Shown here: positions 20,436 to 58,156 of the stretch, piece after piece
Layout of the letters: the number at the start of each line of letters is the position of its first letter
Numbering within the stretch: position 1 is the stretch's first letter
Source: Salinigranum rubrum
GTDB lineage: Archaea > Halobacteriota > Halobacteria > Halobacteriales > Haloferacaceae
Reading direction: 5' to 3'
NCBI RefSeq assembly: GCF_002906575.1
Contig: NZ_CP026309.1
Coordinates: forward strand, 4,030,001 to 4,094,000
Length of the DNA: 64,000 nt
Made by a program: the position numbers and the translations under genes
Notes under the pieces: generated by a model
Databases searched by the model: none
What the model was told of the DNA's origin: nothing
Seen by the model: only the letters and a program-made list of their open reading frames with translations

Positions 20436-21518
20436 ATGACTACACGGACGCTCCGACTGGCGACGCGCGGGTCGGACCTCGCCCTCAGACAGGCGGCGAG
20501 CGTACGGGAGGCGCTCGAAGACCGCCGGTACGAGGTCGAAATCGTCGAGGTCGAGACGGAGGGGGATCGGGTCACGGACGAACTCATCCACCGACTGGGG
20601 AAGACCGGCGCGTTCGTCCGCGCGCTCGACGAGCGGGTGCTCAGTGGAGCGGTCGACGCCGCGGTCCACTCGCTGAAGGACATGCCGACGGAGCAGCCGG
20701 AGGAACTCGTCATCGCGGGCGTCCTCGAACGCGCGCCGGCGAACGACGTCCTCGTCACGCCCGAGGGGAAGACGCTCGACGAACTCCCCGAGGGGGCGAC
20801 CGTCGGGACGTCGTCGCTGCGGCGGCGGGCGCAGTTACACAACGCCCGGCCGGACCTGACGGTCGAACCGCTCCGGGGGAACGTCGACACGCGGGTCGAG
20901 AAGGTGCTGGCGCCGTCGCTGCAGGCGGAACACGAGGCGCGTATCGAAGCCGACGAGGAACGGAAGGGGCACATCGGCGAGGACGACTACGAACCCGCGT
21001 ACGACCAGCGTCCCGAGGAGTGGTTCGACTCCCTGAGCGAAATCGAGCGGAACGCCCTCGGCCGGGAGGAGAGCGTCGAGTACGACGCCATCGTCCTCGC
21101 GGAGGCGGGCCTGCGACGGAGCGGGCTGGACCACCACGTCCCCTTCGTCAGACTCCCGACGAAGAAGTTCGTCCCGGCACCGGGTCAGGGCGCCATCGCG
21201 GTGACGGCGACCGAGAACGTCGCAGACCTCAACGAGGTGCTTGACTTCCCGCGGACACGCGTCGAGACGACGGTCGAACGGACGCTGCTCGCCGAACTCG
21301 GCGGGGGCTGTATCGCGCCCATCGGCGTCTACGCCGTCCTGCAGGGGTCGTACGTCCACGCGACGGTCCAGGTGTTCGGTCCCGACGGCGACCTCGTCGA
21401 GGCGTCGCGCGACCTCCCGGCCGAACAGCACGGGACCGCCGCGGCCGACTTCGCCGCCGACCTCCGCGACCGCGGCGCGGCGGAACTCATCGAGCGAGCG
21501 ACGGAGGGGGCCGAATGA
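20436..21518 (+). CDS. hemC: Hydroxymethylbilane synthase (porphobilinogen deaminase)
   Basis: Polymerises four porphobilinogens to hydroxymethylbilane. The 360-residue protein has RLATRGSDLALRQA at the start, the substrate/cofactor Arg-rich stretch GTSSLRRRAQL, HSLKDMPT, and the dipyrromethane-binding Cys in ELGGGCIAPIG (about residue 289). An acidic insert (about residues 165-205) after the GNVDTRVEK motif is probably a haloarchaeal feature. It overlaps cobA by four bases and starts the hemC-cobA-hemD operon. A TATA-like ggcttttca lies near 20404-20412. Confidence 0.95.
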   Translation: MTTRTLRLATRGSDLALRQAASVREALEDRRYEVEIVEVETEGDRVTDELIHRLGKTGAFVRALDERVLSGAVDAAVHSLKDMPTEQPEELVIAGVLERAPANDVLVTPEGKTLDELPEGATVGTSSLRRRAQLHNARPDLTVEPLRGNVDTRVEKVLAPSLQAEHEARIEADEERKGHIGEDDYEPAYDQRPEEWFDSLSEIERNALGREESVEYDAIVLAEAGLRRSGLDHHVPFVRLPTKKFVPAPGQGAIAVTATENVADLNEVLDFPRTRVETTVERTLLAELGGGCIAPIGVYAVLQGSYVHATVQVFGPDGDLVEASRDLPAEQHGTAAADFAADLRDRGAAELIERATEGAE

Positions 21519-22350
21519 GCGACACCGACGTCTCCGGAGACGTCGAGAGGGTCGGCCACGTCTCGCTCGTCGGGTCCGGGCCGGGCGACCCGGAACTGTT
21601 GACGGTGAAGGCCCGTCGCCTCCTCGACGACGCGGACGTCGTCCTCCACGACAAACTCCCCGGCCCCGACATCATCTCGCTCGTCCCGAAGAACGCCGCG
21701 AGGACGTCGGGAAGCGCGCCGGCGGGGAGTGGACGCCGCAGGAGTACACCAACCGCCGGCTGGTCGAACTCGCCCGCGAGGGCAAACACGTGGTGCGACT
21801 GAAAGGCGGCGACCCGTTCGTCTTCGGTCGCGGGGGCGAGGAGATGGAACACCTCGCGCGGGAGGGAGTCCCCTTCGAGGTGGTCCCCGGCATCACCTCG
21901 GCTATCGCCGGTCCGGCCGCGGCGGGCATCCCCGTCACACACCGCGAGTACGCCTCCTCGGTCTCGTTCGTCACGGGCCACGAGGACCCGACGAAGGAGG
22001 AGTCGGCCGTCGACTGGGAGGCGCTCGCGGCGACCGGCGGGACCATCGTCGTGCTGATGGGCGTCGGGAAACTCCCCGACTACACCGCCGAACTCCGGAG
22101 AGTGGGAACGGACCCCGAGACGCCCGTCGCGCTGGTCGAACGCGCGACGTGGCCGGGAATGTCAGTGGCGACGGGGACGCTCGACACCATCGTCGACGTT
22201 CGCGACGCGGAGGGAATCGAACCGCCGGCCATCACCGTCATCGGCGAAGTCGCGTCGACCCGCGACCGGGTCGTCGACTTCCTCCGGAGCGGGTACGAGG
22301 TCGACGGGACGGAGACGGGAGAGCCTGACGAGCGCGGGGGGCGGGGATGA
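21515..22350 (+). pseudogene. cobA: Uroporphyrinogen-III C-methyltransferase, interrupted by a -1 frameshift
   Basis: SAM-dependent enzyme that methylates uroporphyrinogen III at C2 and C7 toward siroheme and cobalamin. The first frame (21515 to about 21697) has VSLVGSGPGDPELLT and VLHDKLPG. The second (to 22350) has VRLKGGDPFVFGRGGEE, PGITSAIAGPAAAGIPVTHR and the C-terminal domain. The junction is at gaacgccgcgagg, around 21694-21700; one extra C giving N-A-R-E-D-V would restore a normal protein of about 278 residues. Everything expected of the enzyme is present, so an indel error is the likelier cause. It overlaps hemC and hemD by four bases each. Confidence 0.85.
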
Positions 22351-23089
22351 CCCGGGAGGTCCGCGTCGCCGTCTTCCGTCCCGACGACGTCCGACTCGCG
22401 CGGGCGGTCGAACTGCTCGACTCGCTGGGTGCGACGCCGGTGCCGGACCCGATGCTCGCCGTCGAGCCGACGGGAACCGTCCCCGACCCGGCACCGTACG
22501 TCGTGCTCACGAGCAAGACCGGGGCCGACCTCCTCGCCGAGTCGGGATGGTCGCCCGGGGACGCGACGCTCGTCTGTATCGGTCCGACGACCGCGGAGGC
22601 TGCGCGAGCGGCCGGATGGACGGTCGACCTGGTTCCCGAGGAGTACTCCTCGGCCGGACTGGTCGCCCTCCTCGACGGAGTAGTCGCGGGCGAAACGGTC
22701 GCAGTCGCCCGGTCGGACCACGGAAGCGACGTGCTCCTCGACGGCCTCCGGGAGGCGGGTGCGACGGTCGACGAGACGGTCCTCTACCGGTTGACGCTCC
22801 CCGAGGGCGCCGGGCGGTCGACGGAGATGGCCGCCCGGGGGAGCTGGGGGGCGTCTGTTTCACCTCGTCGCTCACCGTCGAGAACTTCCTCGAAGCGGCG
22901 GCCGACCGCGGCGTCCGCGAGGAGGCAGTCACCGGGCTGAACGACGCCGTCGTCGGCGTCATCGGCGACCCGACGCGAGAGACCGCCGTGGCACACGGGC
23001 TCGATGTCGACGTCGTCCCCGACCGGGCGGACTTCGAGGAACTGGCGTGTCGCGTCGTCGAGGCCGCAGCGCCGACGTACCACGAGTAG
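22347..23089 (+). pseudogene. hemD: Uroporphyrinogen-III synthase, interrupted by a -1 frameshift
   Basis: Cyclises hydroxymethylbilane to uroporphyrinogen III. The first frame (22347 to about 22841) encodes the N-terminal lobe with VVLTSKTGADLLAE and ATLVCIGPTTAEAARAAG. The second frame continues with VCFTSSLTVENFLEAA and the C-terminal end to 23089. The junction is a run of five G at 22837-22841; a sixth would join ...MAARG to ELGGVCF and give about 247 residues. HemD proteins are weakly conserved, but the lobe motifs and the position after cobA support the call. Third gene of the hemC-cobA-hemD operon. Confidence 0.8.
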
Positions 23090-23177: not shown

Positions 23178-23603
23178 TTAGGCCGAGTCGTCGGTCGTCG
23201 TCTCGTTCGTCGTCGTTTCGTTCGTCGTCGTTTCGTTCGTCATCGTCTCGTTCTCCATCGAGTCCGTCTCGTTCGTCATCGTCTCGTTCTCCATCGAGTC
23301 CGTCTCGTTCATCGCCGTCTCGTTCTCCGTCGAGTCCGTCTCGTTCGTCATCTCCGTCTCCGTCTCGGATTCGGTCATCATCTCCGTCTCCGTCTCGGAC
23401 TCGGTCATCATCTCCGTCTCCGTCTCGGTCATGGCCTGGTCTTCCTCGGCCGTGTCCGTTTCGCCTGCGGCTCCCTGACTTTCTGTCGTGCCATTCGTCG
23501 AGCCATTGTCACTGCCCGAACCCGAGCAGCCAGCGATTGCTGCGATGAGTGTGGTGGCTGCGCCAGCTACGAACGTTCGTCGAGAGCGGTTGTTTTCGGT
23601 CAT
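23178..23603 (-). CDS. Tat-exported lipoprotein with Thr/Glu/Asn repeat stalk
   Basis: A 141-residue protein. The N terminus reads RSRRTFVAGAATTLIAAIAGC, a twin-arginine signal followed by a lipobox ending in Cys (about residue 26), so it is probably exported folded and lipid-anchored on the outer face of the membrane. Everything after the Cys is low complexity: repeats of the type TETEMMTESE, NETDSMENETMT and finally NETTT. There is no globular domain. The many N-x-T sites (about a dozen) would allow N-glycosylation. It is divergent from the repeat-rich surface regulator at 23772, with 170 bases between them. The start is the ATG at 23603. Confidence 0.75.
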   Translation of the reverse strand: MTENNRSRRTFVAGAATTLIAAIAGCSGSGSDNGSTNGTTESQGAAGETDTAEEDQAMTETETEMMTESETETEMMTESETETEMTNETDSTENETAMNETDSMENETMTNETDSMENETMTNETTTNETTTNETTTDDSA

Positions 23604-23771
23604 GTCGCAGTCGACGGCGACGGGAGACGAGTCCAAAAACAGGGACGACTGTCTCGACCGTTCATTCGCGAAATAGAGATTGTTTCGACTGTTTCAGGCG
23701 AAAACTCACGCCGGACAGAGGATAAACGAAGTGTTAAAACGCCGCTGGTGGTATGTGCCACGAGACGAGGA

Positions 23772-25304
23772 ATGAACGTGCGCTCTGCCGTCCCAAGCAG
23801 CGTGATCGCGGTTGCGGCCGTCCTCCTCGTGCTGAGTGGGGGGGTCGTCGCCACGGCGACCGTGCCGGTCGCCGTGAACGGCGTCGCGCTCTCGGGACCG
23901 GCCGTCGTCGCGGACGGCGACCGGCCATCGGTCGCGGCGTGGCGCAGCGTGAACGTCACCGCCACAGTGGCGACAGGGACCGACACGTACGACGTCTGCG
24001 CCGGCGTGGGCGACGCGGACGCCACGTGCCGCCGGATCAACGGGACGAACACGACCGAGAACGTCACGCTGTCGCTCGATAGCCTCCCGTCGAGCGCGAC
24101 CGGGGACCAACAACTGACCGTCACCGTCCGGAGCGCGAGCGCGGGGAGCGCGAACACGACCAACGCGAGCGCAGAACCGCTCGCGAGCCGAGCGGTCGAC
24201 GTCCGGGTGCTCGGGGCAGAGGGCGACGCCGACAACGACGGACTCGCCAACCGCCGGGAGTTCGAACTCGGGACGGCCTTCGACACGGCGGACACCGACG
24301 GCGACGGTCTCGCCGACGGCCCGGAGGTGAACACCCACGAGACCGACCCGACGAACACCGATACTGACGGCGACGGCCTCGCGGACGGCGTCGAGGTGAA
24401 CAGACAGCAGACGAATCCGACGGAGTCGGACACCGACGGTGACGGCCTCGACGACGGTGTCGAGGTGACCACGCACGGGACCGATCCGACGGACACCGAC
24501 ACCGACGGTGACGGCCTCGACGACGGCGCCGAGGTGACCGAGTATCAGACCGATCCGACGGTAGCCGACACCGACGGCGACGGCCTCGACGACGGACCGG
24601 AGGTCAACGTCCACGAGACCAGTCCCACGAGTCCCGACACCGACGGTGACGGTCTCGACGACGCGGCGGAGGTCAACCGGTACGGTACCAACCCGACCGA
24701 GGCGGACACCGACGGCGACGGCCTCACGGACGGGCGCGAGGTGAACCAGCTCGGGACGGACCCGACACGGGCCGACACCGACGGCGACGGAGTCGACGAT
24801 GCGGCCGAGGACCCCGTCGGCGGGGACGTAGCGACCGACGGACCGGGCGTGATCGGCTCGCTCTCGGCCGCACCGGGTGTCGCCGTCGGAGCCATGGCCG
24901 GCGTTTCGCTCGCTCTCGTTCTCGGTGCTGCGCTGCTCCACCGAAGACGCGGGTCGTTGTGGACCACCTCGTCCGGGGACGAACCGACCCAGACCGAGGC
25001 TCCGACCGCGAACGGTGGACACGGAACCGAACCCGCCGCACCGACCGGGACGAGCATCCCGAAGGCGATGACTGACGAGGAGCGGATCCACGCGGTCGTC
25101 GACGACCACGGCGGGCAGGTGAGACAGTCGGTCATCGTCAGCGAAACGGACTGGTCGAAGTCGAAGGTGAGCCGGGTACTCTCTCGGATGGCCGAGGACG
25201 GCACGATAGAGAAGATCCCCATCGGACGGGAGAACGTCGTCGCCCATCCCGACGAGGTTCCCGAGGGCGCGGGGTCGCCGTTCGACCCGCCCGACGAGGA
25301 GTGA
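23772..25304 (+). CDS. Membrane protein: thrombospondin type-3 repeats, one TM helix, winged-helix domain
   Basis: A 510-residue fusion. Residues 1-30 are a signal-like hydrophobic segment. Residues 30-150 form a beta-rich domain with several N-x-T sites. Residues about 152-347 hold nine type-3 calcium repeats, seven of them exact 23-residue units of the form DTDGDGLxDGxEVxxxxTxP. A single TM helix (about residues 370-392) is followed by RRR, so the C terminus is inside. Residues about 433-500 (DEERIHAVVDDHGGQ to VSRVLSRMAEDGTIEK) form a winged helix of the haloarchaeal DUF7343-like type. It looks like a one-component surface sensor/regulator; the signal and target are unknown. The start is the ATG at 23772. 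Confidence 0.8.
   Translation: MNVRSAVPSSVIAVAAVLLVLSGGVVATATVPVAVNGVALSGPAVVADGDRPSVAAWRSVNVTATVATGTDTYDVCAGVGDADATCRRINGTNTTENVTLSLDSLPSSATGDQQLTVTVRSASAGSANTTNASAEPLASRAVDVRVLGAEGDADNDGLANRREFELGTAFDTADTDGDGLADGPEVNTHETDPTNTDTDGDGLADGVEVNRQQTNPTESDTDGDGLDDGVEVTTHGTDPTDTDTDGDGLDDGAEVTEYQTDPTVADTDGDGLDDGPEVNVHETSPTSPDTDGDGLDDAAEVNRYGTNPTEADTDGDGLTDGREVNQLGTDPTRADTDGDGVDDAAEDPVGGDVATDGPGVIGSLSAAPGVAVGAMAGVSLALVLGAALLHRRRGSLWTTSSGDEPTQTEAPTANGGHGTEPAAPTGTSIPKAMTDEERIHAVVDDHGGQVRQSVIVSETDWSKSKVSRVLSRMAEDGTIEKIPIGRENVVAHPDEVPEGAGSPFDPPDEE
24291..24773 (+). repeat. Seven 69-base repeats encoding type-3 calcium-binding units
   Basis: Seven consecutive units of exactly 69 bases, each opening with gacaccgacggygacggyst, plus degenerate units on either side. 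Asp/Gly at the positions of the DxDxDG loop are invariant. Synonymous differences between units show an old array rather than a fresh slippage product. Confidence 0.85.
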
Positions 25305-57661: not shown

Positions 57662-58156
57662 ATGGGGGAGAATGCCGACAGTGGGGGACCCACAGGAGTA
57701 CTGACGAACAGAAGGCGCCAGCTAGTGCTCAGCCAGTTACAGGAACACGAGTCGATGGCACTCCGCGACCTCGCAGAGCAGATCGCGGTCAGCGACCTCC
57801 AGACCGACATCGAGTCGCTCAGCGAGGAGGCCATCGACGAGGTGGAAATCGCGCTCCACCACGTCCACACGCCCAAACTGGCCGATGCGGGCTACGTCGA
57901 GTACGACTCGCACAACCAGGTCATCTCGTTGACCGACGCCGGGCGCCGCAAGTCCATCGAGAACGAGTGCGACCACGTCGGACCGCAGTCGTCTAGCCGT
58001 ATCTCGGTCAACCTCCGCCCGGAGACGGTCGACTTGCTCCACGGAATCATCCGCCGAGACGACCGGTTCGACGCACGGATGGACTACGACGACGTCATCT
58101 CCGTGGTCCTCTCGGACGCCCGCATCGAGCGGGAGAGCGAGGAAGAAGCACAGTAA
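57662..58156 (+). CDS. Winged-helix protein (DUF7344-like)
   Basis: A 164-residue protein. Residues 10-95 form a winged helix of the haloarchaeal DUF7344 type: [29 protein letters not shown], then [19 protein letters not shown] second small domain (residues 110-155, [19 protein letters not shown]) resembles a short dimerising strand-helix-helix. A DNA-binding regulator is likely; the target is unknown. It is leaderless. Between it and uvrC is a gap of about 165 bases with a short ggacacgcc repeat near 58222-58262. Confidence 0.8.

Follow-up and report, generated by a model that had tools for sequence, protein, structure and literature searches.

Can a single protein carry a signal from the surface of a haloarchaeal cell to its DNA? 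The question is raised by a gene in the 4.97 Mb genome of Salinigranum rubrum, located at positions 23772–25304 (forward strand) of the 64,000-nucleotide stretch analysed here (hereafter the window) and translated into 510 aa. The original prediction described a protein with nine calcium-type repeats, a beta domain, one transmembrane (TM) helix and a winged helix (wHTH), separated by a divergent gap of about 170 bases from a Tat lipoprotein made up entirely of a glycosylatable low-complexity stalk. Pfam and hydropathy analysis agree with this domain composition, and the features of the locus are as follows.

23178..23603, − strand: divergent Tat lipoprotein, 141 aa, with a low-complexity T/E/N tail and 12 sequons; a genus-level companion, putatively linked to the regulator
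23604..23771, no strand: divergent intergenic region, 168 bp, conserved in locus L059 (alignment)
23772..25304, + strand: whole gene, stop included, of the transmembrane wHTH regulator with a type-3 repeat (TSP3) stalk (translation; L059 orthologue; dN/dS 0.33)
23772..23858, + strand: signal peptide or first hydrophobic segment, residues 1–29 (hydropathy peak at residues 11–29)
23865..24227, + strand: all-beta head, residues 32–152, with Trp57 and Cys76/Cys86 (family profile A2)
24225..24810, + strand: stalk of nine type-3 (DxDxDG) repeats of the calcium-binding type (Pfam PF18884, E=8e-40; tandem array at 24291–24810)
24849..24935, + strand: single TM helix, about residues 360–388, followed by HRRR (hydropathy; family charge bias)
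25068..25250, + strand: DUF7343 winged helix, residues 433–493, with the WSKSKVSRVLS recognition helix and GREN wing (Pfam PF24034, E=7e-26; invariant columns)

The mechanically called open reading frame of the regulator is longer (766 aa, from 23004), but the ATG at 23772 is the preferred start because both the orthologue at L059, a locus from the same genus, and the signal peptide support it; the stop ends at 25304. The L059 orthologue is collinear and 73% identical over residues 1–509, with dN/dS values of 0.33 overall, 0.19 in the repeats and 0.20 in the wHTH, whereas conservation is lowest in the TM segment and linker (52% identity, dN/dS about 0.5). Judged by this same-genus orthologue, the purifying dN/dS and an architecture that recurs across the class, the regulator gene is not a chance ORF.

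The nine D.D.DG repeats lie between residues 152 and 335 with a period of 69 bp (23 aa) and match TSP3_bac (PF18884) with 134.7 bits against a gathering cut-off of 25, seven stretches scoring over the threshold. The DxDxDG ligand residues are present in all nine, so that each is a predicted calcium site as read from the sequence. The C-terminal domain scores 90.3 bits against the DUF7343 gathering cut-off of 27.6; the Pfam scan found no DUF7345 match in the protein. Sequence matches of the wHTH to solved wHTH proteins are weak, and its single-sequence fold model (pLDDT 50) was discarded. For the head, a single-sequence AF2 model has nine beta-strands (pLDDT 70, pTM 0.64). A fold search with it gave weak Ig-, FN3-, CBM- and CARDB-like matches (best E 7e-3) to which no family could be assigned, and the head profile found nothing significant among PDB sequences, the best matches (E 0.12) being antibody chains. 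Another TSP3 protein of this genome, at L085:9396-10343, is 315 aa long and has 12 DxDxDG repeats; it lacks a wHTH and seems to be secreted or surface-located.

Profile A2, which covers the head and excludes the repeats, was used to search 391 Halobacteria genomes from 86 genera and matched 67 of them, representing 26 genera and nine families. A phylum-wide search yielded five matching genomes, every one from the same order, and a full-protein scan of genome contigs returned bacterial TSP3 proteins as its sole matches. The ORFs of the fetched family loci were annotated with head, repeat, TM and wHTH models, and all 76 readable ORFs with a head and a wHTH have the order signal peptide, head, TSP3, TM, wHTH; the window protein likewise combines a head with the Cys pair, TSP3 repeats, TM helix and wHTH in this order. 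The predicted recurrence of the TSP3-TM-wHTH order in other genomes is thereby borne out. Fusion by error, or an assembly artefact, is ruled out by the 76 fused relatives, the lone split case (L061) being caused by a frameshift. Two weak head relatives (L170:7809-9011 and L171:7706-8845) carry 8–10 type-3 repeats, with no Cys pair and no wHTH. In public records the family members are labelled as 'helix-turn-helix', 'MarR family' or 'thrombospondin type 3 repeat-containing' proteins, and our literature search found no paper on DUF7343 and none on the head-TSP3-TM-wHTH architecture.

Conservation differs markedly along the protein. In all 76 members the head contains exactly two Cys and one or more Trp residues, and the stalk is free of Cys, a pattern that fits an exported disulfide domain. 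The wHTH follows the consensus WSk.KVSRlLS...GReN, with invariant G, Q, W, S, K, V, S, R, L and G-R-x-N positions; by this measure its recognition helix and wing are near-invariant and under constraint, as in a domain of the DNA-binding type. The topology can be read from two family-wide signals. Head domains carry 4.8 sequons each compared with 1.5 expected from shuffles, and the cytoplasmic part has 0.31 per 100 aa; the net charge is −0.8 before the TM helix and +1.2 after it. Because of this sequon partition and charge bias, a single-pass topology with the head outside and the wHTH in the cytoplasm is supported, which agrees, as a prediction, with the placement of repeats and beta domain outside and winged helix inside that had been proposed earlier.

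Which of the external parts would do the sensing is a separate matter. The type-3 stalk had been proposed as the sensor, and this assignment was not supported by the comparison: the number of TSP3 repeats varies from 1 to 11, differing between relatives, between paralogues and inside genera, whereas the Cys pair and Trp of the head are kept throughout. For that reason we consider the head the likelier sensor and the stalk a spacer, a step that goes from conservation to function. The repeats could themselves sense calcium or salinity, their rigidity shifting with calcium or ionic strength, and the nine extracellular, canonical DxDxDG repeats under purifying selection speak for this; we nevertheless regard it as decidedly unlikely, given that the repeat count is so variable, that the invariant features sit in the head and that two members of genus g14 (L093 and L129) keep the same head and wHTH with just two degenerate repeats, a number also seen in L131 of that genus.

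The poorly conserved linker between the TM helix and the wHTH (25–148 aa, median 50) bears on how a signal would be passed on. Together with the type I topology and the low conservation of the TM and linker noted above, it is compatible with a Notch-like scheme, in which a ligand or tension would trigger shedding of the ectodomain and an intramembrane or juxtamembrane cut would free the wHTH to diffuse. However, there is no conserved cleavage motif, no protease gene recurred conspicuously in the neighbour clusters common to most genera, and many membrane regulators work without cleavage (PMC10269533), which makes proteolytic release unlikely. A wHTH that acts while still anchored in the membrane is the reading that we retain below.

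The candidate output of the family comes from its gene neighbourhood, which, like the architecture, the conservation and the topology signals, is a matter of direct observation. Neighbouring genes were grouped by clustering and Pfam, and HMMs were built from those clusters. Two or more genes for surface polysaccharides (GT2, GT1, UDP-sugar dehydrogenase, GlmS, flippase, DegT, Gfo/Idh, DUF354 or PGM) were found within 7 kb at 36 of the 75 family loci, as counted with HMMs built from these tested, mutually related loci themselves, compared with none of 40 random regions from the same genome set and two of 20 loci that encode TSP3-free DUF7343 regulators. The association relative to random regions has a Fisher p of 6e-9, computed as if the related loci were independent. 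On the tree, the polysaccharide context needs about four label changes, and since the loci cluster phylogenetically, independent associations number far fewer than 36; by genus, the median is at least two polysaccharide genes in 13 of 26. A second recurrent neighbour encodes a DUF7344 membrane wHTH protein whose C-terminus has one or two predicted TMs: such a gene stands directly upstream and co-oriented at 32 of the 75 loci (11 genera), and any DUF7344 gene was found within 7 kb at 41, compared with one of the 40 random regions and none of the 20 TSP3-free DUF7343 loci. The link of the family to surface-polysaccharide loci and to an upstream DUF7344 gene is new here. A shared palindromic operator was sought in the upstream regions of the family genes, and none rose above shuffles.

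Two of these loci lie in named plasmids. On pHME505 of Haloferax mediterranei the genes encode DegT, Gfo/Idh, a 200-aa hypothetical protein, the regulator, GT2, a flippase and nucleotide-sugar dehydrogenases, and pHGLR2 of H. gibbonsii provides the second named case of a regulator in a polysaccharide locus. In three genomes, two family members on opposite strands and 20–31 kb apart bracket a polysaccharide-gene region (G224:C13, L130 and L136; G365:C6, L133 and L148; G384:C1, L167 and L168), and each member of these pairs has its own upstream DUF7344 gene. Roughly one in two family members, those of the window clade included, lies outside polysaccharide loci. In a second conserved context the family gene immediately precedes uvrC, and ligA and a pair of ABC-2 transporter genes are often close by (L134, L139, L140, L142–L145, L150, L151, L153, L155, L158, L161 and relatives); one large clade is placed between ligA/ABC-transporter genes on one side and uvrC on the other. 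This uvrC/ligA arrangement may be mere stable synteny.

The linkage to a second HTH regulator and to pathway genes also bears on whether the protein regulates genes at all. TSP3 repeats are common in structural and adhesive proteins, and the best NCBIfam matches of the window protein are CglD and MtsD-type TSP3 surface proteins, far under cut-off, so that the wHTH might be imagined as an inner anchor to proteins or bulk DNA in a structural surface protein that regulates no specific gene. Against this stand that linkage and the near-invariant recognition helix and wing, seen also in DUF7345-DUF7343 proteins, and we hold a purely structural role to be very improbable.

The copy in the window is flanked by hemC-cobA-hemD and an enoyl-CoA hydratase gene. 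The tree places it with L059 and, less securely, with L060, L147, L137 and L165. Within 7 kb none of these six copies has polysaccharide genes or an upstream DUF7344 gene: the clade lacks that context, which the Salinigranum copy has left. A DUF7344 wHTH match at 57698–57925 of the window (1.4e-20), one of 17 in the genome, lies away from the regulator gene. The cobA-like (21515–22350) and hemD-like (22347–23089) genes of the window have frame shifts near 21690 and near 22840, respectively, whereas their L059 counterparts are intact single-frame genes; because two adjacent biosynthesis genes are broken in the same way, this suggests sequencing indels, with pseudogenes as the alternative.

The divergent lipoprotein turned out much as described, with a 168-bp gap, a twin-arginine SRRTF motif, an IAGC lipobox and 12 N-x-S/T sequons. 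Ahead of the sensor gene the intergenic region holds the AT-rich GATAAACGAAGTGTTAAAA, and a similar GATAAACGAAGCATTAA is found in G002, a genome of the same genus. At the same hemD locus the lipoprotein shares 77% identity with its counterpart in L059 and 48% with that in G002. The expected conserved neighbourhood was found in part: the pairing of regulator and lipoprotein holds within the genus, where it can be read in two Salinigranum genomes, G002 having the lipoprotein beside 1545 bases given as N; beyond the genus, no conserved lipoprotein partner was seen at the family loci, lipoprotein matches elsewhere were mostly low-complexity, and it is DUF7344 and polysaccharide genes that recur. 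Gene-sized N stretches lie beside a similar lipoprotein, at the expected position of the regulator, in G002 (L226:9061-10605) and in G030 (L227:8804-10420). It is plausible, from this arrangement, that the protein regulates itself and controls the lipoprotein via the divergent region; the nearest candidate target of the Salinigranum copy would be the 168-bp promoter region between the two genes, together with the glycosylatable lipoprotein.

Taken as a whole, the protein is probably a one-component transmembrane transcription regulator of haloarchaea, built as head, stalk, TM and wHTH. The type-3 repeats, of the calcium-binding type, would form a rod that keeps the exported, disulfide-containing beta-sandwich head off the membrane. 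It is the head, and not the repeats, that would bind or sense a cue at the cell surface, in the S-layer or in the glycan layer. By way of the single TM helix, a change of position or oligomer state would then reach the DUF7343 winged helix in the cytoplasm, and this domain would bind DNA while still membrane-anchored. Family-wide, surface polysaccharide and glycan genes would be the likely output, probably together with the adjacent DUF7344-type membrane wHTH. In this chain we infer that the repeats load calcium, that the head senses a ligand and that the wHTH binds DNA, and likewise which genes are regulated. A bolder version, which we put forward tentatively and do not yet favour, is that of a class-wide outside-in family whose disulfide head on a variable stalk reads the glycan or S-layer coat and, with the neighbouring membrane-anchored DUF7344 wHTH, directly switches its own polysaccharide locus with no kinase or diffusible intermediate. 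If true, it would amount to a two-protein membrane-bound transcription switch for archaeal capsule or EPS.

Outside sensing and the control of surface polysaccharides are little known in haloarchaea, for which the family, spread over 26 genera, is a widespread candidate; the main weight lies on this class-wide family and its polysaccharide link, and less on the window copy itself. The context also gives a function-linked setting to three domains, DUF7343, DUF7344 and the unnamed head. Candidate target loci exist in the genetically tractable hosts H. mediterranei and H. gibbonsii, and deletion of an EPS cluster is established in the former (PMC8387396; PMC9769981), a cluster that we do not equate with the pHME505 locus.

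Among known systems, the haloarchaeal DUF7345-TM-DUF7343 proteins, two of which, from the same genome, were scanned (L086 and L087), share the C-terminal wHTH family, the one TM and an N-terminal exported domain, but the ectodomain of these two is DUF7345, with no TSP3 stalk and no Cys-pair head; the window protein is not one of them. TSP3-free DUF7343 regulators also differ in lacking the family neighbourhood at their loci, as the counts above indicate. The DUF7344 proteins are likewise haloarchaeal and membrane-associated, but they have a cytoplasmic N-terminal wHTH and no ectodomain, and none adjoins the window gene. TSP3_bac surface proteins such as the myxobacterial MtsD and CglD carry the same calcium-type repeat, but are secreted or anchored, and the window protein scores far under their NCBIfam cut-offs. 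In ToxR and CadC the DNA-binding domain lies at the N-terminus; here the order is reversed, with signal peptide, head and TSP3 stalk first and the wHTH C-terminal. Transmembrane transcription regulators are an established class, of which the single-pass form is the commonest, and 'Thrombospondin' is absent from the main text of the survey that describes it (PMC10269533). Archaeal ArnR and ArnR1 bind promoters of surface-structure genes (PMC6396743). Like these regulators, and like ToxR and CadC, the window protein and its 76 relatives combine a predicted DNA-binding domain with a TM in a single polypeptide (PMC10269533), and by predicted domain content and topology the window protein belongs to the same class.
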